Below, piece by piece: positions 7,622 through 46,422 of a stretch of 64,000 nucleotides of DNA (position 1 is the first letter of the stretch; each line of letters opens with the position of its first letter). The stretch is taken from contig JAJQJQ010000003.1 of NCBI GenBank assembly GCA_028622995.1, positions 3,410,001-3,474,000 of the forward strand. The letters run 5' to 3'. The position numbers and the translations under genes were made by a program. The DNA comes from Panagrolaimus kolymaensis. Its lineage: Eukaryota > Nematoda > Chromadorea > Rhabditida > Panagrolaimidae. The notes under the pieces were generated by a model. It was not told the origin of the DNA, made no database searches, and saw only the letters and a program-made list of their open reading frames with translations.

Positions 7622-8221
7622 ATGAAGTGTCTCGTTATTCTTGCAGTTTTTTTCTTTGTTGGAGCTTTATGTACTATAGAAAAGAAGGGTCGCGATCGTA
7701 AACGCCCATCAAGAGCTGCTTTCCATGATGATCCATTTCGACCTGTTTTCCCTGAAGAAGTTCAACATCAACATCATGGAGGATGGCCTAAACCTTGGCC
7801 ATCTCAAGATAAACCATGGAACTCTCCACCATCCGGAGATTGGCCACATCATGATCGTCCTGATTGGCATCATTCCCATTCTCATTCACATTCTCATTCC
7901 AACTCTAATGAAGGTTATAAACCGCCTAGACCTGATTACAATCCACCACGTGATGGTTATCAACCTCCACGACCTGACTATAACCCTCCACGTGATGGAT
8001 ATCAACCACCTCGCCCCGATTACAATCCTCCTCGTGAAAATTACCAGCCACCTCGACCAGATTATAATCCTCCCCGACCTGTTTACCAACCACCTCAACC
8101 AAATTATAATCCACCTAAGCCAAATTATTATGAACCACCACGTCAACCTGAATATCCTCCTCCTCAACATGATAATGGCTATGGCAACAATCAACAACCA
8201 CCAAACCGTGGAGGTTATTAA
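7622..8221 (+). CDS. Secreted proline-rich tandem-repeat protein
   Basis: A single-exon gene of 199 residues. A signal peptide (MKCLVILAVFFFVGALC) leads into a basic part (KKGRDRKRPSR), a Trp/Pro/His part and a His-Ser run (HHSHSHSHSHS) at about residues 83-94. Then comes a tandem 14-residue repeat, YQPPRPDYNPPRDG and variants, about four good copies decaying into YNPPKPNYYEPP. No enzyme domain. The composition suits an extracellular, possibly cross-linked structural or mucin-like protein; the His-Ser run could bind metal. Function is inferred from composition only. AATAAA lies near 8295. Confidence 0.82.
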   Translation: MKCLVILAVFFFVGALCTIEKKGRDRKRPSRAAFHDDPFRPVFPEEVQHQHHGGWPKPWPSQDKPWNSPPSGDWPHHDRPDWHHSHSHSHSHSNSNEGYKPPRPDYNPPRDGYQPPRPDYNPPRDGYQPPRPDYNPPRENYQPPRPDYNPPRPVYQPPQPNYNPPKPNYYEPPRQPEYPPPQHDNGYGNNQQPPNRGGY

Positions 8222-25202: not shown

Positions 25203-25738
25203 ATGAAGTATCTCATTTTATTAACCCTTTTTGTGGTTGCTGCATTTGGTTATAATCCTGCTATGATGACATCGAACACCTATCCTGGATCCAATGGTTA
25301 TCAAAACCAATATGCCTCCAATTCATATCCTGGATCTAATGGTTATCAAAACCAATATGACTCAAATTCTTATCCTGGATCCAATAGTGGCTACCAAACT
25401 CAATACCAAAATCCAAGTCAACCTATGCAATACCAAGATCAACAAGGCGGATATCAAACTCAAAGCAACCAAGGCTATCGCCGTCCCAATTATCAAAGTT
25501 TGTTTATTCCTTAAATTGCTTTTCTATTTAAGTGTTTTTAGATGGAATGATGTCTCCAGTTAATTATACTCCTTATCTTCAAACTCGCGGCGCCCCTATG
25601 TTTCCTCGAAGCCTTAATCCTCAAGAACAAGAAATGTCCATTCTTCCTTATCCTTCTCAATATACAAACCGCAACGATAATCAAGGTTTCAATAATGGCC
25701 AAAATCAAGGTCGCGCTCAACAACCAAATACCCTTTAA
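25203..25738 (+). CDS. Secreted Tyr/Gly/Asn/Gln repeat protein
   Basis: Two exons (25203-25498, 25542-25738) with a 43-nt intron; about 163 residues. The signal peptide is MKYLILLTLFVVAAFGYNPA. Three copies of a 14-residue repeat follow (SNTYPGSNGYQNQY, SNSYPGSNGYQNQY, SNSYPGSNSGYQTQ), then a Gln/Tyr-rich low-complexity part, and an exon 2 tail with PYLQTRGAPMFPRSLNPQ. No globular domain. Composition resembles Tyr-rich extracellular matrix or glue proteins; function is inferred only. Confidence 0.8.
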
Positions 25739-36708: not shown

Positions 36709-38883
36709 ATGGCGTCTTCTCCTGGTGGTTCCACAGCAATTTCTCAACGCTTGGTCAGTTTTCTCATTGACGCAGATGATGTTTTGCAATGTGAAATTTG
36801 TATGGAAGCTTTTGATTCAGAGAAGAAGCCGCCAAAATTATTACCTTGCGGTCACAATTTTTGCGAAGCTTGTTTGTTTTCTCTTTGTTTACATCAAGAG
36901 GTTTGCATATTTTTACGCTAAAGCAAGTTCGTGGGAAAATTGTATGTACTTTTTTAGTTTAACTTTCTTGATTCAATAAGTTGTCCAACATGTAGAAACC
37001 AATTTGAAACTTCAGCAGCAATTAATGCTCCAACTAATTATGATCTATGTAGTATGTTTTTTGACAAAGTCTTTGTAGTTTCAATTTAAAAACTCCTTTT
37101 TTTAGAAATGTTAGAAAGTGTAAAACGCGGCCAAGATTTAAATGTTACTGTAATACATGTAGCGGATAAAAGTTTCACAAGTTCTGCATCAAAAGCAAAC
37201 TTTGCTGTGGATTCCAGCACTCCACATGGAAAACGTCGAACCCGCTCTTTGAAGAAGTCTAAAAAGCCAAATCCATCATTGGCATATAAAGCCTTGGACC
37301 TTGATGCGGTTTACGAAAAGCCATATGACATTGATAATCGAAAGCTAATGGATCCAAATCGATGCACAGATTGTAAACGAAAAATAAGCCCTTCAAATCG
37401 GTGCAAAATGAGCAGATTTTGTTTACGGTGTTTTGGAAGTGACAAAGTTTTGGTAAGTTTAGCTTCTTTTTGAAGGAATAAAAAACACAATAACTTTTAT
37501 TATAGCATCTTTCCTGTTTGGAATGCTGCGTAAATAAACATAATGGACATCAATTGAAATCAATCGATGATTTAGAATATGAACATCAAAAGTTGTTGAA
37601 TGAACTTCGAGAGCTTGGTCCTCGACGAAAGGATATTAGTGCACGCTTTGATGAAGGATTAAAGCTTCTTGAAGAGGAAAGCAATATCAATCTTGATTTT
37701 TGTTCTTTAGGAAGAGCTAAGCAGGTTTGTATGAAGAAAAAACAGCTGCGAAATTTATTACTAATCCCACTTTTTAGACTCTGATTAAAGAGTCCGATAG
37801 ATGCTATTCTAAATCAATTTTAATGCTGGAAGATCCATATTTTACGCCATTACCACCAGCAGTAATATCAAAAATTCGTCATCGTCAACTTCATAATTTT
37901 ACGCGTTTACAAAAAATGTTTAGTTTGTTAGAAGTACGCGATTATCCTTCTTTTTTTGTTGTTGTAAAAACTTAATTTTTTACATTTTCAGAAGTGCCAT
38001 CAAAATGTTCAAACAAGATTAGATCGCCATTTAAATATGCTCACAAAATCATTGCCAAAATCAGTTTCATCCAGTTCATCAAGATCCATGTCAACGGTAA
38101 AAGTTGATGAAAGTGTCACATATAGCAGTTTAAGCACGATATTAGCATTAGCAAAAGAAGTGATTCCCGAATATTCAATAATAAAGAAAAATTTGCCACT
38201 TATTGTTGATGAAAATTTGACTGAACAGCCTAAAATTAATGCAATTAAACAATGCGTTGTTATTATGAATAAAGTTATTAATGAGTGAGTTAACAAAAAA
38301 TTAAAGCTTTTAAAATTGTTAAAGTGAAAATTTAGAAATTCGCCACCTGAAATATTGATGCTTTTCCAAGATGCTTATTTGAATTGCTTCCATTCATTGC
38401 ATTTCTTTTCTAAAAAATTGGGAGATATCCAAGAAAGAAAAGAAATTTGGTCGCTAGTACAAATTTCCATGACAGAATTGCTTCGAATTGCCAGCACCGT
38501 GAGTTTACACTCTAACGCTTTAAATTTTATTATTACTTTTTTAGCGCTTTCCAAGTTACAACGCTGATAGAGTTGATATGGTTGGAGACATTGCTTTTCT
38601 CTGTAACTTATATTCAGATGTTTGTGATAGTGCAACCATGACTTTATGCATGATTGAAGCTGCTCGATCACGGGTTACTCAAGAGCAAGCTGAAAGCAAA
38701 GCGGAAAAAGATCGAATGGAAATTCAACTTAAACTTATTGATGAACATCTTCTCGAGTGTAGAAGAGTGCAAAAGCTGCGAGAATTACGTAGCAATACAA
38801 AAACTAAAAATCTTGGTCGATGCAGTAGACTAAAACGCTGGTTTAAATCAACCATGTCTTCACGAAGTGTTTCTGCAAAATGA
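36709..38883 (+). CDS. RING-finger, B-box-like protein (TRIM-type E3 ligase candidate)
   Basis: Eight exons. A TTTTTAG acceptor ends 18 nt upstream of the ATG. The C3HC4 RING is at residues about 28-80: CEIC, then CGHNFCEAC, then (after the first intron) CPTC. A Lys/Arg/Ser linker follows (GKRRTRSLKKSKK), then a Cys/His-rich B-box-like zinc region (CTDCKRKISPSNRC, FCLRCFG, LSCLECCVNKHNGH). The rest is alpha-helical and coiled-coil-like (EYEHQKLLNELRELG; VTQEQAESKAEKDRMEIQ). The C-terminus is basic (RLKRWFKSTMSSRSVSAK). The family usually transfers ubiquitin. No SPRY, NHL or other C-terminal domain was recognised. Confidence 0.83.
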
Positions 38884-39016: not shown

Positions 39017-42000
39017 TTATGAAGAGCAACAAATATTTCCTGGACGACATGTGTATCCAGTAGCGCATTGACCATTGTAGCATGAACCAAAGGGTGCTTG
39101 ATTATTAGGGCATTGAGGGCAGCAATAATTGTTGCTGCTGCAAGTAAAGCCATTTCCACATCCCTAAAAAATATTAGTGAGTTAATGATAATTTTGCTTA
39201 TTCGGGTTTACTTGTCCACAAAGTCCGCTTGTTTGACCATATTGACATTCGCAACAATAATTTGAAGTTGTGCAAACCATTGATTGTCCACATGTTCCAC
39301 CGCTATAACAACTTGAAACAGCTGTAATCCCAGCGCAAGCAACTAAAAAAATAAATTTAATAAATGATTATTCTTAAATAAATATTCCTTACATTGCCAT
39401 TCTTGTCCAGTTCGAGTACAACAAAGTCCATTAATACAAGTTTCACTGGAACTACATTGAGAGCTGGTGGAACATCTTACTTGGGATTGTTGGCCATTGT
39501 AGCAAACTCCAAAAGTGCCATTGGGATTAGTATTGGAACCTGAGCAACACATGCCATTTTGACAACTACTGCTAGCGCCATAAAATTGTTGGCAATTAGC
39601 TGAATTTTGACAATACATTCCCAAAAATTGGCCACCATTTACGCATTGATTAGGTGCAGCGGTGGTTGGTTGAACCGAATATGAAGAACAACACATTCCA
39701 TTCAAGCATGTGGTCATCGTTCCAAAATAAGTTTGACATGCTGATGCTGTTTGACAATACATATTTAAAAATTGTCCTCCATTTGAACAATAGCTTATAG
39801 GTTTTACTGTTGAACTTGGAGCTGTATTTGTGGTGCAACATTGTCCTTAAAAGTAATTATGTTAAATGTTTGAGACTTAAATGATTCAAACCATTTATGC
39901 AAGCTGAACTTGAACCATAAACGTTTTGACATTGAGTGAATGAAGAGCATGTGGAACCAAGAGAAGTGCCACCGTTACTACATTGAGCATTGTTTGATCC
40001 AGAGCAACAGAAACCTAATTAAAAATTTTATTTTGCGTTTCAAAATAATAAAAAATTTACCAGTAATGCACGAAGAGTTAAAGCCATATTGGTTTTGGCA
40101 TGTTTGGGTTGAAGTGCAAGTATTTCCTAAATACACTCGACCAACTGGACATTGATTGCTATTTGTGCTTGTAGAGCAACAAATTCCTGTAAATTTAACC
40201 ATTGTCAATTTTTTTAAAGATAGTTTTTACCGCTAATGCATGCTGAATTTAATCCATAAATTTGTTGACAATTTTGAACTGTTCCACATGTTGACCCAAG
40301 ATAGTTACCACCATTAGTACATTGATTGTTATTGGTAGTGGTAGAACAACAAAAACCTAAATTTTAATTTTAAAAAAAATGCAAATCGTATAGAATTTTG
40401 AATACCATTAAGACAATTTGATTGGAATCCGTATTGATTTTGACATTGGGTTAATGTGTTGCAAGTTGAACCGAGATAAGTTCCACCATTGCTACATTGT
40501 CCATTATTATTTGAGGAACCCGAGCAACAATAACCTTTAAAAAATTGTTACTTTTTTGTAAAACATTCTAATTTTTACCATTAATACATGTGGTATTGAA
40601 TCCAAATGAGTTTTGACAATTTTGTGTGGTACCACAAGTTTGTCCTAAATAAAATCCACCATTTGAACATTGGCCACTGCTAGATGCGCCAGAGCAGCAA
40701 TTTCCTAAAACAAAATTTGTTTCTTTCAATTCGTTTTTTTCCTACCGTTTATGCAAGTGGAGTTAAATCCAAATGTATTTTGGCAATTTTGAGTTGTTCC
40801 ACATGTTTGTCCCAAATTAACGCCGCCATTGGAACATTGATTTGTGTTAGTATTTGTTGAACAACAAAATCCTAAAATAATAAAATGAAGATTTTTTAAA
40901 ATTATTGTTATACCATTAATACAAGCAGATTGGAAACCGAAAAATGCTTGGCACTGAGTGTACGAACTGCATGTGGATCCAAGATAATTACCGCCATTAA
41001 TGCACTGGCCGCTATTAAAAGAGCCAGAGCAACAATAACCTTTAAATAATATTTTTTGTTGCTTTTTGAGCTAACTTTATAGTTAACAAACCATTAGTGC
41101 ACACAGAATTTGTGCCAAACGAATTTTGACAATTTTGGGTTGTGCCACATGTTTGTCCTAAATAAGTGCCGCCATTTGTACATTGGTTGTTGTTATTGTT
41201 TGTTGAACAACAAAGTCCTAAATTTTAAAAGTTATAACAACGTATGTTCTTGTAAGTAAATGCTGTCATACCATTCATACAAGTGGCAGAAGTCCCAAAA
41301 GAATTTTGACATGTTTGGGTTGTTTGACAAGTCAAACCAAGATAATTACCACCATTATTACATTGATTGTTATTAGTACTTGTGGAACAACAGAATCCTA
41401 TAAAATTATTTTTACTCAATTATTAGAAGCTTTCTTTGTTTACCATTAAGACAATTTGATTGTGTACCATAACGATTTTGACAATCGATTAATGTGGTAC
41501 AAGTTGAGCCAAGATAACTCCCACCATTGCTGCATTGAGTATTGCTGGATGAGCCGGAACAACAATAACCTTCAAACAACATATGTGTAAATATTATGAA
41601 AGATTAAAAAGTGTGTTTACCATTAATGCATGTGGAATTAAATCCAAAAGAATTTTGACAATTTTGCGTAATTGTGCACGTCGTTCCTAGATAAAATCCA
41701 CCATTGCTGCATTGAGTGTTAGTGCTACTGGAGCAACAGAATCCTAAAAAAATTTAAATCTTGATGAAACAGTCTTTGTTTATTTTATACCATTGGCGCA
41801 AGTTGCTTGGCCTCCAAATTGATTTTGGCATTGTTGAGTTGTACTACAAGTTGTGCCTAAATAGTTTCCACCATTGTTGCATTGGGTATTGGTTGAACTA
41901 CCGGAGCAACAGAAACCTTGAATATAATTTTTAGTTAATTTTGATGCTTTTATATCTCCTACCATTTATGCAAGTGGTGTTAAAACCGAATGAATTTTGA

Positions 42001-44255
42001 CAATTTTGTGTTGTTCCACAAGTTTGTCCCAAATAAAATCCACCATTCGAACATTGATTATTGTTGTTGCTTGTTGAGCAGCAATTACCTAAATTCGTTC
42101 TAGTATTATTTTTAAGTTTTATTTTTGCAATTTATACCATTTACACAAGTTGCTTGGTTGCCATATTGTGTTTGACATTGCTGAGTTGTACCACAAGTCG
42201 AACCCAAATAATTTCCACCATTCGTACATTGATTATTATTAGAACTTGTTGAACAACAAAAACCTTAAACATAAATCTTAGTATTAATGGCTGCGTCTCT
42301 TCTTAACCTTACCATTAAGACAAACGGAATTTGTCCCAAATGAATTTTGACAATTTTGTGTAGTACTGCAACTAATTCCCTGGTATGATCCACCATTTGT
42401 ACATTGGTTATTATTATTACTTGTAGAACAACAAAATCCTTAAATTTGAATTTCATTATTGTAATTATATATTTTTAAACATAAGTCTTTCACGCTTACT
42501 TACCACTTAGGCAAACGGAGTTAGTGCCAAATGAATTTTGACAAGTTTGCGTTGTGCTACAACTGATTCCCTGATATGATCCTCCATTAGAACATTGATT
42601 GTTGGTATTGGTCGAACAACAAAATCCTATAAAAAAAATCGATCGAAAATGCCAAAGCCATTAATTAGTACCGTTAATGCACGTGGCAGAGTTTCCGAAA
42701 GAATTTTGACATGTTTGGGTTGTTTGACAAGTCAGACCAAGATAATTTCCGCCATTATTACATTGATTGTTATTAGTACCAGTGGAACAACAAAAGCCTT
42801 AAAAATTTGCTTTTGTTTTTTTTATGAATTATTATTATTTTTACCATTGGAACAAATAGCGCTATTTCCAAAGAAATTTTGACAAACTTGATTGGTTGTG
42901 CATGTATTGCCTAAATAAGTTCCACCATTGGGACATTGATTGCTGGTTCCTGTAGAGCAGCAAAAACCTTTAAAAAAATTAAATTCATTTTTGTTTAAGA
43001 GAAAATTATAAAATCACCATTTGTGCATGTGGCTTGATTCCCATACTGAGTTTGACACTGTTGTGTTGTACTACAGCTGGAACCCAAATAATTACCGCCA
43101 TTGGGACACTGATTATTCGTGCCAGAGGAGCAACAAAATCCTAAAATTCGCCTTTTTTTAAATCTTTTTTAATCTCTTTTACCATTAATACAAGTTGCAG
43201 AATTTCCAAAAGAATTTTGACATGTTTGAGCTGTTTGACACATCAAACCAAGATAGTTTCCGCCGTTTGTGCATTGATTATTGGTGCCGGTGGAGCAACA
43301 AAATCCTAAAATCTTTTTTGTTTATTATTTAAAAGAAAATTATAAAATCACCATTGGTACACGTGGCTTGATTTCCATATTGAGTTTGGCATTGTTGGGT
43401 GGTTCCACAAGTAGAGCCCAAGTAGTTTCCGCCGTTAGTACATTGATTATTATTTGCACTTGTTGAACAGCAAAAGCCTTAAAAATAAGCTTTAAAGTAC
43501 AATGTTTTTATTTTCCAACTTACCATTTAGGCAAACGGAGTTAGTTCCAAATGAATTTTGACATGTTTGAGTTGTGCTGCAACTGATTCCTTGATATGAT
43601 CCTCCATTTGAACATTGATTATTATTAGTATTAGTTGAACAACAAAGTCCTAAATTTAACCTTTTTTAAAAGCCTTATTTTACTTATTAGTACCGTTGGT
43701 ACAAGTAGCAGAAGTCCCAAAAGAATTTTGACATGTTTGGGTTGTTTGACAAGTCAAACCAAGATAATTACCACCATTATTACATTGATTGTTATTAGTA
43801 CCAGTGGAACAACAAAAGCCTTAAAAAAGTAACCAATAGATACACTGCTTTTATTTTCCAAACTTACCATTAAAGCAAACGGAATTAGTGCCAAATGAAT
43901 TTTGACAAGTTTGAGTTGTCTGACACGTCAACCCAAGATAGTTTCCGCCGTTTGTGCATTGATTGTTGTTAGTAGAAGTTGAACAACAGAATCCTATAAA
44001 GTTTCAGTTTTTCCAAGTTTAGGATTGATTTGTCATACCATTGGTGCATGAAGCAGCGTTACCAAAAAACTGTTGGCAAACACTTGTTGTTGAACATTGC
44101 ATTCCCAAATATGAGCCACCATTGTTGCATTGGGATTGACGTTTAACACGTTTAATCGTCTCATTTAAACTTCGAGGTTTCAAATCTTTGGTGGTATTTT
44201 CTGTATGAATGGGAGAAAATAAAGCTAAAAGTATAATAAAGCTAATCCACAACAT
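39017..44255 (-). CDS. Secreted protein of about 28 tandem six-Cys modules
   Basis: The start MLWISFIILLALFSPIHTEN is a signal peptide; the propeptide ends in a furin-like RVKRQ. Modules then follow with consensus QCNNGGxYLGxxCxTTQxCQ, a variable NxFG part, CxNG and CCS, that is C-x10-C-x5-C-x8/9-C-x3-CC. Exon 1 holds one module. About 24 exons between 44.0 and 39.9 kb hold one module each (42 codons, intron phase 1 on both sides, breaking after CxNG). A larger exon (about 39846-39394) holds three more divergent modules. Two last exons hold shorter Cys motifs ending GNICCSS. Estimated length is about 1300 residues. The modules recall nematode CC/EB-type disulfide repeats, but I do not assign a family. 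The role is probably extracellular, matrix or mucus. Confidence 0.85.
39895..44036 (-). repeat. Tandem array of about 24 single-module exons
   Basis: Units of about 172 bp (126-nt exon plus about 45-nt intron) repeat through 4.1 kb. One exon measured exactly, 41272-41397, is 126 nt. Subtypes recur in the same order, and some introns are near copies (for example the intron ends before 43017 and 43353), so blocks of several exons with their introns were duplicated. Confidence 0.85.
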
Positions 44256-44861: not shown

Positions 44862-46422
44862 TTAACAAAAAGTTCCCATCAATAAAATACTTTTTAAGTT
44901 TTGAGGTTTTTCATCTTCAAGTAATGTAACAAAATAAATAAAAGGATGATCAGCTATGAATGTTTCCATTTCGAAAGCTGCTTCTGGAATACCACTCATT
45001 GCAGACGCTGCATATCCAAAAGTTCCATTTTGATCCACCTATAATTTTCTTAAATTGTTTATTTCATTAAACTTATTTTATTACTTTTATTCCTGCTTTA
45101 TGAATTGCTTTATCTATAAAATGTTGTCGACAAAATATTTTAGTTATTCCATGGCCTTGAAATAAATTAGTTAATCCCATTGCTTTCATTTTTTCCTCCA
45201 AATTTACATCATCTTCAATTTTAAAAGCTGGAATCGTGGCTTCGATATAATCAGCAACGTTGCTATAAATAAAAATTATTCGTTTAATTTTTAAATATTT
45301 TAGTTAATTTGAATGGAATAACCGGAGTTTTGGAGAAATAGAGTTTAAATCTGTGACACCAAAGTTTAATCTTTAGAATCATAAAGCCGAGTTCAAAAGA
45401 AAAAATTATAAAACATACTTTTCAACACATTTTTTAATAAATGTGTAATCCAATCTTTTTAATAATTCTGGTAATCCATCATCTTTATCTGGCAATAAAA
45501 TGTGTAGCCATCCATGACTTTCGTGTTTTATATGGTATTCCAAGGCATTTCCAATTATCACCTTTAGTCAAATTCCAATGTTGAAATATTGCGGTCTTTT
45601 CCATCATTTCAATTTCTCGAACACTTGTGAAGGAATAAAATTTTCCAGTTTTATTGAATTTTTCTTCCCATTCTGCTTTAAAACATAAAGCATTTACAAT
45701 AAATATATTAGCCTCTTCATTTACATCCTTCTCTAATACAATATTTTCTATCAATCCTTCTGTTTTTTCATTTACAAATTTATTAATTTTCTGAAATTAT
45801 TCAATTTTTAGTAAAAGACAAAATATAGAGTGTCAAAAGTTTTTCAACACCATCACTATTTAGATATTAAAAAAACAAAACAAAAAACTTTTAAAAACTT
45901 ACGTCAGAAACTTCTTTTTTATTAAAAAAATTAACTTGTTCAAAATCATTATCAAACAAATCAACCATCATTTTTTCAAAGCTAGGAAGTAAAGGCTCAT
46001 TTGAAAGGAATAAACGATTCGAGAATAATAATTTATAATTTAAATTATTATTTGTTGTTTTACAATATTTTCCAAAGTTGGAATAATATTTTATTATTTC
46101 TGCAGCATGGATGTTTTCTAAAAACATAATAAATGTAAATATTATGATCTTGTTAAGCTTGGTGAAGTTTAAATTAATACAACCTCGCCGTGGCTACCAT
46201 TAGAAATACCCAATGAAAATATGCTTTTGTGTAAAGCAAATTTTAATATTACATACCTCCAAAAATTTTACCAAGTTGATCTGCTGTTTGTCCATCAGTA
46301 CCAGAATAAACAATAGCAAGCGCGTTTAGAATAGATGCAGGCGAAAAACATGTAGATTTAGAACTTGGATCTAACATATTTAAAAATTTAACAGAAAAAT
46401 CAATTTCAGATTTTATACTCAT
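44862..46422 (-). CDS. Serpin-family protein with an apparent one-base frameshift
   Basis: About six exons encode a full serpin-length chain starting MSIKSEIDFSVKFLNML. Serpin marks: CFSPASILNALAIVYSGTDG (helix B region), FIVNALCFKAEWEEKF, CLGIPYK, then HESHGWLHILLPDKDDGL, IPAFKIEDDVNLEEKMKAMG, AIHKAGIKVDQNGTFGYAAS (hinge) and FIADHPFIYFV. No signal peptide is seen, so it may be cytosolic. Between CLGIPYK and HESHG the frame shifts by one base in a run of four A (near 45530); in the given sequence a stop follows soon after. All other exons and splice sites are intact, so this is a recent pseudogene or a homopolymer sequencing error. Confidence 0.8.

Follow-up and report, generated by a model that had tools for sequence, protein, structure and literature searches.

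How does a gene come to carry two dozen symmetric exons in tandem, and does such an array make many proteins or a single long one? The question is raised by a gene in a stretch of 64,000 nucleotides (nt) from Panagrolaimus kolymaensis, a free-living permafrost nematode known for cryptobiosis. This stretch, the window, covers positions 3,410,001 to 3,474,000 of the forward strand of contig JAJQJQ010000003.1 (C2:3410001-3474000), and positions below are counted from its first letter. The gene has two homeologs in the same genome; the window copy is called C2 and the others C17 and C9, and exons are numbered within each copy, C2_03 being the third array exon of C2. The main point of interest is that the homeologs differ in exon number. 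The amino acid sequence of the encoded cysteine (Cys) modules is tightly constrained, and the number of exons shifts.

The gene and its permuted exons

The window gene lies on the minus strand and is predicted to have 28 exons between 44255 and 39017, which read in a single uninterrupted frame; after exon joining, the coding sequence has 3957 nt and encodes 1318 amino acids (aa) plus a stop. Exons 2-25 form the array, 24 symmetric exons spanning 43993-39892. A preliminary description of this DNA had proposed about 24 tandem six-Cys exons of 126 nt, or 42 codons, in one gene. The single gene, the 24 exons and exactly six Cys in each (24/24) are retained here, but a length of 126 nt applies to only 17 exons, six others having 123 nt and one 129 nt. 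Every array exon of the window gene is preceded by AG and followed by GT, with phase 1 at both borders, and the introns are 41-65 nt long (45 nt for intron 1). The predicted junction into exon 27 is backed by a relative from Aphelenchoides, P0001, which reads EWKFACAGI at the place where the window model reads EWQFACAGI. The exons are as follows.

44039..44255, minus strand: exon 1, with putative signal peptide, propeptide ending in RVKR and first four Cys of module 1
43868..43993, minus strand: array exon 1, 126 nt
43694..43819, minus strand: array exon 2, 126 nt
43524..43649, minus strand: array exon 3, 126 nt, combining C17-type exons 3 and 4 as a hybrid
43352..43477, minus strand: array exon 4, 126 nt, without one-to-one partner in C17
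43183..43305, minus strand: array exon 5, 123 nt
43018..43140, minus strand: array exon 6, 123 nt
42845..42967, minus strand: array exon 7, 123 nt
42672..42797, minus strand: array exon 8, 126 nt
42504..42626, minus strand: array exon 9, 123 nt, an additional exon of the window copy, without reciprocal partner in C17 or C9
42313..42438, minus strand: array exon 10, 126 nt, with a hybrid signal
42138..42263, minus strand: array exon 11, 126 nt
41963..42088, minus strand: array exon 12, 126 nt
41791..41916, minus strand: array exon 13, 126 nt
41621..41743, minus strand: array exon 14, 123 nt
41444..41569, minus strand: array exon 15, 126 nt, where charged residues first occur in the mature protein
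41272..41397, minus strand: array exon 16, 126 nt
41092..41217, minus strand: array exon 17, 126 nt, first of exons 17-24, which are one-to-one-to-one across the three copies
40914..41039, minus strand: array exon 18, 126 nt
40746..40871, minus strand: array exon 19, 126 nt
40579..40704, minus strand: array exon 20, 126 nt
40406..40534, minus strand: array exon 21, 129 nt
40231..40356, minus strand: array exon 22, 126 nt
40061..40186, minus strand: array exon 23, 126 nt
39892..40014, minus strand: array exon 24, 123 nt
39393..39845, minus strand: exon 26, two further intronless modules, followed by the DUF7107-like module that belongs to the family tail
39212..39342, minus strand: exon 27, first part of the conserved family tail
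39017..39163, minus strand: exon 28, second part of the conserved family tail, stop codon included

In the protein, the Cys residues follow the order C-x10-C-x5-C-x9-C-x4-CC. In every case the intron interrupts the module at N-G|x-CC, two residues ahead of CC, so that the exon is a permuted module rather than a domain and the earlier equation of one exon with one module has to be given up. Each array exon carries the CC that finishes the preceding module, followed by the first four Cys of the next. Whichever exon is gained or lost, all modules are therefore still complete. By this pattern the mature protein comprises 27 modules: the first begins in exon 1, the array contributes 24, and exon 26 holds two. 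The signal peptide in exon 1 was called by eye, while the RVKR site after the signal sequence and propeptide is read directly, in agreement with the furin-like processing of a secreted product that had been proposed.

The chain is nearly devoid of charge. Charged residues make up 0.8% of the window protein, and one run of 644 residues is free of Lys, Arg, Asp, Glu and His; the corresponding runs are 610-630 residues in the arrays of the homeologs and at most 75 in the 15 relatives tested. Such a stretch is unusual within the family and singles the gene out in a cryptobiotic nematode. The predicted fold of the module is strand-helix-hairpin, with block means of 91-93 at residues 61-90 of the relative P0008. 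The CS-alpha-beta signature, in which a helical C-x3-C pairs with a C-x-C of the last strand, does not occur in the module, where the Cys spacing is that given above and one Cys lies in the predicted helix. Among solved structures there is no match by sequence.

Three homeologous copies

The P. kolymaensis assembly is given as triploid, with 266 Mb in 856 contigs and 49 mitochondrial contigs identified, in the available text of its description (PMC10374039); the version searched here has 265,843,910 bases in 807 contigs. A DNA search with a 1261-base query located the homeologous copies on C17 and C9, at 86% and 82% identity. The array has 24 exons in C2, 26 in C17 and 26 in C9, and the variable copy number suggested earlier stands in this form, as a difference between three homeologs of one genome. 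Over the three copies, 76/76 array exons have six Cys and AG/GT borders, contain no stop and are a multiple of three in length, the exon finder having required AG/GT and the Cys pattern beforehand; the remaining introns (41-65 nt) are too small to conceal a missed exon. The phase-1 introns at both ends, by which a whole exon can be added or removed in frame, had been noted before and are likewise general (24/24 here, 76/76 over the copies), none of the 76 exons is broken, and the claim of a single gene is supported.

The ratio of nonsynonymous to synonymous divergence (dN/dS) is 0.07 for C2-C17, 0.07 for C2-C9 and 0.08 for C17-C9, with dS values of 0.141, 0.200 and 0.215; the comparisons comprise 776, 857 and 897 codons and leave out the split Gly codons and those exon pairs whose lengths differ (3, 2 and 2). 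Since the two homeologs contribute 52 further exons built by the same rules, under purifying selection, the observation is not due to chance, and the intact exons together with dN/dS rule out a chance or pseudogene array. Chain length appears to tolerate change, and module sequence does not. As a natural experiment within one genome, the three homeologs combine the same exon rules and a strongly constrained sequence with differing counts and visible hybrids. They allow one to ask in what way exon arrays gain and lose units, and if a protein whose module sequence matters is also sensitive to its length.

When exons with their introns are paired by reciprocal best hit, 22/24, 23/24 and 25/26 find partners across the copy comparisons, and the misses, like one out-of-order pair, are confined to the 5' part or to C17 exons 16-17. 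In the numbering of C9, exons 3, 4 and 8 are missing from C2 and exons 3 and 6 from C17. Exon 9 of C2 is an addition, as are exons 16 and 17 of C17, which are inserted between the counterparts of exons 17 and 18; C17_17 and C9_03 share 91% identity. For window array exons 17-24, one-to-one partners exist in both C17 and C9. In a tree of the 76 units, exons cluster by position and not by copy, so most duplications would predate the split of the copies and few would be younger; 32 of the 71 inner branches are supported at the starred level, and the long-branched groups C2_18 and C2_24 are possibly joined falsely.

Several exons are hybrids. C17_05 changes at about column 40 from agreement with C2_04 to agreement with C2_05, a single switch fitting 46/47 informative sites, and C2_03 can be described as a hybrid of C17_03 and C17_04 with one switch that fits 44/45 sites. 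Permutation tests gave p<0.001 in 6/7 comparisons, the failed one being C2_03 against C9 exons 4 and 5 (p 0.37); these tests are post hoc, as 25/76 exons were flagged by half-exon best matches and 5 of the 25 were tested in the 7 comparisons. All six positive tests place the switch within columns 24-46, which correspond to the linker and the stretch of the first Cys. Collinear controls were split in 0/7 cases, although in control C2_22 the other type appears briefly, close to the intron end. The hybrids are most simply accounted for by in-register exchange or conversion, in the 5' half, among exons that lie next to each other. A DNA search and a search with exon 26 (E<=10, 61 matches), both of which score best candidates only, found no further arrays in the genome beyond the three loci and a short paralog.

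Relation to a nematode-wide family

Judged by its C-terminal domain, the window gene is a member of a nematode-wide secreted family, and it appears to be a long, derived form of a short secreted protein. A search with the whole protein (proteins of 725-2306 aa) gave one relative, the above P0001, from Aphelenchoides besseyi, and its tail, as query, gave three more long members from Aphelenchoides and Bursaphelenchus. With a profile of six tails, 70 proteins were found at E<=0.001; all 65 that have a legible organism name are from nematodes, including C. elegans P0034, for which a gene name was looked for and not found. In the alignment of the window tail with the paralog and four relatives, 57 invariant columns are listed, including W159, C163, CCEC and GNICC. 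The usual plan of the family, often about 235 aa long, is a signal, RxKRQ, one window-type module, a DUF7107-like module and the tail. Signal and RxKRQ are the consensus among 41 relatives, and the window gene has both. Pfam matches to DUF7107 are found in 36/41 relatives and to CC in 12/41 (E<=0.1).

The short members, such as C. elegans P0034 (235 aa) and UniRef entries named 'CC domain-containing' or 'EGF-like domain-containing', are similar to the window gene in the signal, RxKRQ, the module C-xNGG-...-C-x5-C-...-CC, the DUF7107-like second module and a tail with EWxxACxG, SNYCCEC and GNICC. They differ in that the common members (190-260 aa) have one module and about 5% charged residues, as opposed to 27 modules and the low charge of the window protein. 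The long members, Aphelenchoides P0001 (758 aa) and P0003 (712 aa) and Bursaphelenchus P0004 (561 aa) and P0005 (562 aa), also have an array of Cys modules before the same tail; compared as proteins only, they have irregular module spacing, 9-11% charged residues and fewer modules. The objection foreseen in the preliminary description, a well-described domain with this exon layout in all nematodes, was not borne out: the fully known relatives from other nematodes have no 24-module array, exon layout having been compared with the short paralog of this genome only.

Pfam DUF7107, CC, EB and Dickkopf_N have a Cys/NG/CC pattern similar to that of the window module. The window protein was scanned in its first 406 aa and last 283 aa, the middle part of about 630 aa being outside the scan, and the pieces stay below the curated cut-offs: EB (PF01683) scores 9.6 versus 24.3 bits in the first piece, DUF7107 (PF23416) 15.5 versus 24.6 bits in the last, and CC (PF04942) has no match listed for the window tail and 17.1 versus 20.6 bits in the tail exon of the short paralog. 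Matches to Acetyltransf_15 (E 0.0048, 16.8 versus 35 bits), YL1_C and Lum_binding were taken as composition artefacts. The earlier statement that the module belongs to no named family can be kept as far as these cut-offs go, but the gene itself has a family through its C-terminal domain. SCREPs (secreted cysteine-rich repeat proteins), a descriptive class from data mining (PMC6262176), resemble the window protein as secreted tandem repeats of disulfide-rich domains; the available part of that paper mentions neither exon arrays nor this family. At the level of listings, no published account of this gene was found.

The short paralog has one module, the same tail and 251 aa, and is located at C2:3625972-3626829 (L031:3473-4330), about 172 kb from the window gene; it is likewise present on C17 (L032) and C9 (L033). 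It has the intron at EWQ|FAC in common with the window gene and none ahead of the module CC, so the array intron is a trait of the long gene. Its relatives include P0048 (PS1159), 90% identical over 49% of the query, and P0014 (P. davidi), at 72%. The M. incognita relative P0059 has nothing closer than 51% in this genome.

Splicing and possible role of the chain

The explanation that we hold somewhat more probable than all others together is that the gene encodes a constitutively spliced, secreted, furin-trimmed structural protein, derived from the nematode-wide short secreted protein, with an array grown by exon multiplication. The six-Cys module gained phase-1 intron borders at N-G|x-CC, and the bordered exon then multiplied. 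Copies in the 5' half are apparently still gained and lost by in-register exchange between similar neighbours, the products staying in frame with six Cys per module. These three steps rest on sequence, and we infer the following two. All exons would be joined constitutively, and the product would be a single chain that is secreted, trimmed by furin and almost without charge. With its 27 small domains locked by disulfides, this chain could serve as a long, rigid, protease-resistant extracellular structure, such as cuticle, pharynx lining, eggshell or surface coat. An extracellular structural protein fits best because the chain would be rigid, uncharged and disulfide-rich, with no inner cleavage sites, a strict module sequence and a loose length. 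Several points weigh against this explanation. The structural role is deduced from composition and architecture alone, and the constitutive splicing is deduced as well. In the above search of proteins of 725-2306 aa, no full-length Panagrolaimus ortholog turned up, so the entire array is seen only in its own genome. In the fold search with Foldseek, no significant solved structure was found, with nothing at E<=0.001; the VIA list covers only about residues 59-93 of P0008, other parts being hardly probed.

It is unlikely, though still the best of the alternatives, that the gene is an isoform generator, in which regulated or stochastic skipping of array exons produces many protein lengths. All 76 exons are symmetric, and dropping any one leaves an intact hybrid module at the joint; symmetry is also expected from the duplication of a phase-1 exon, however, and so does not by itself argue for skipping. 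Donor quality varies, with GTAAGT in 3/24 window donors and GTACTA, GTGATT and GTTTGT among the others. Introns as short as these (41-65 nt) suggest intron definition, failure of which usually leads to retention and not to exon skipping, and this counts against the generator. So does the divergence of the introns: in the 3' half their mismatch is 0.07-0.12 versus a dS of 0.14-0.19, with no obvious constraint beyond the splice sites, and by estimate it is no lower than constraint on those sites would explain. Arrays of the Dscam type, with mutually exclusive splicing, also consist of similar exons duplicated in tandem within a gene, but all array exons of the window gene can be included together and an exclusive choice has no support. 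Retention was rejected as a source of isoforms: it would break the frame or introduce a stop in 22/23 array introns of the window copy, only 1/23 being both stop-free and a multiple of three. That intron, at 40872-40913 between array exons 18 and 19, has 42 nt without an in-frame stop, so its retention would add 14 in-frame residues; its counterpart also has 42 nt and is stop-free in all three copies.

Rather improbable is a multivalent binding protein, like a lectin, opsonin or inhibitor, in which repeat number would raise the avidity for a carbohydrate or microbe. A match to an agglutinin is not significant, with a root-mean-square deviation of 13.4 over 163 columns, and purifying selection prevails throughout, diversification not being seen.

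We give very little credence to an ice-active or desiccation-protective extracellular protein, in which a charge-free, rigid array rich in Thr, Asn, Ser, Gln and Gly would contact ice or water. An extended version of the idea is just as remote: a length-tunable charge-free protein that binds ice or bound water would aid survival of freezing or drying in Panagrolaimus, exon number setting its strength, and would be all or part of the ice-active agent of the genus, in a charge-depleted form found in the freeze-tolerant clade. The charge-free run, so much longer than in the relatives tested, would suit such a role, while the lack of a sequence match among solved structures speaks against it. No repeat-type antifreeze protein is known to have a 42-residue period, which also counts against it. 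Extracts of Panagrolaimus inhibit ice recrystallisation, and the agent is unnamed in the available text of the papers in print (PMC4352009, PMC7250440). A UniRef entry of the family, P0009, is named 'Antifreeze protein'; however, this protein, which shares the tail and carries some if not all of the array, comes from strain JU765, which according to the accessible part of PMC4352009 is freezing-sensitive and gave an extract that did not shape ice (the strain was renamed Propanagrolaimus in the corresponding part of PMC6889759). The automatic name also carries little weight because the N-terminal part of P0009, about 132 residues, is the array misread out of frame: it matches the window array in the wrong frame (36% over 133 aa, E 3.7e-15). 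Automatic annotation can therefore miss such genes.

A polyprotein cut into many single-module peptides is scarcely credible, since one furin-type site follows the propeptide but the array part of the mature chain (1187 residues) has five single Lys or Arg, none adjacent and thus no basic pair or cleavage site between units, which argues for one long chain and not for released peptides.

Near the window gene, a RING finger gene (zf-RING_UBOX, E 4.1e-9) lies tail to tail with it at 36709-36921 on the plus strand, continuing towards 38883, and pieces of a Serpin gene (PF00079, E 7.8e-11 and 0.0018) at 45485-46127 on the minus strand form its upstream same-strand neighbour. Elsewhere in the window there are a coding-looking 42-nt tandem repeat of 4.9 copies at 7909-8112 and a 45-nt tandem repeat of 2.3 copies, with 91% matches, at 25281-25385.

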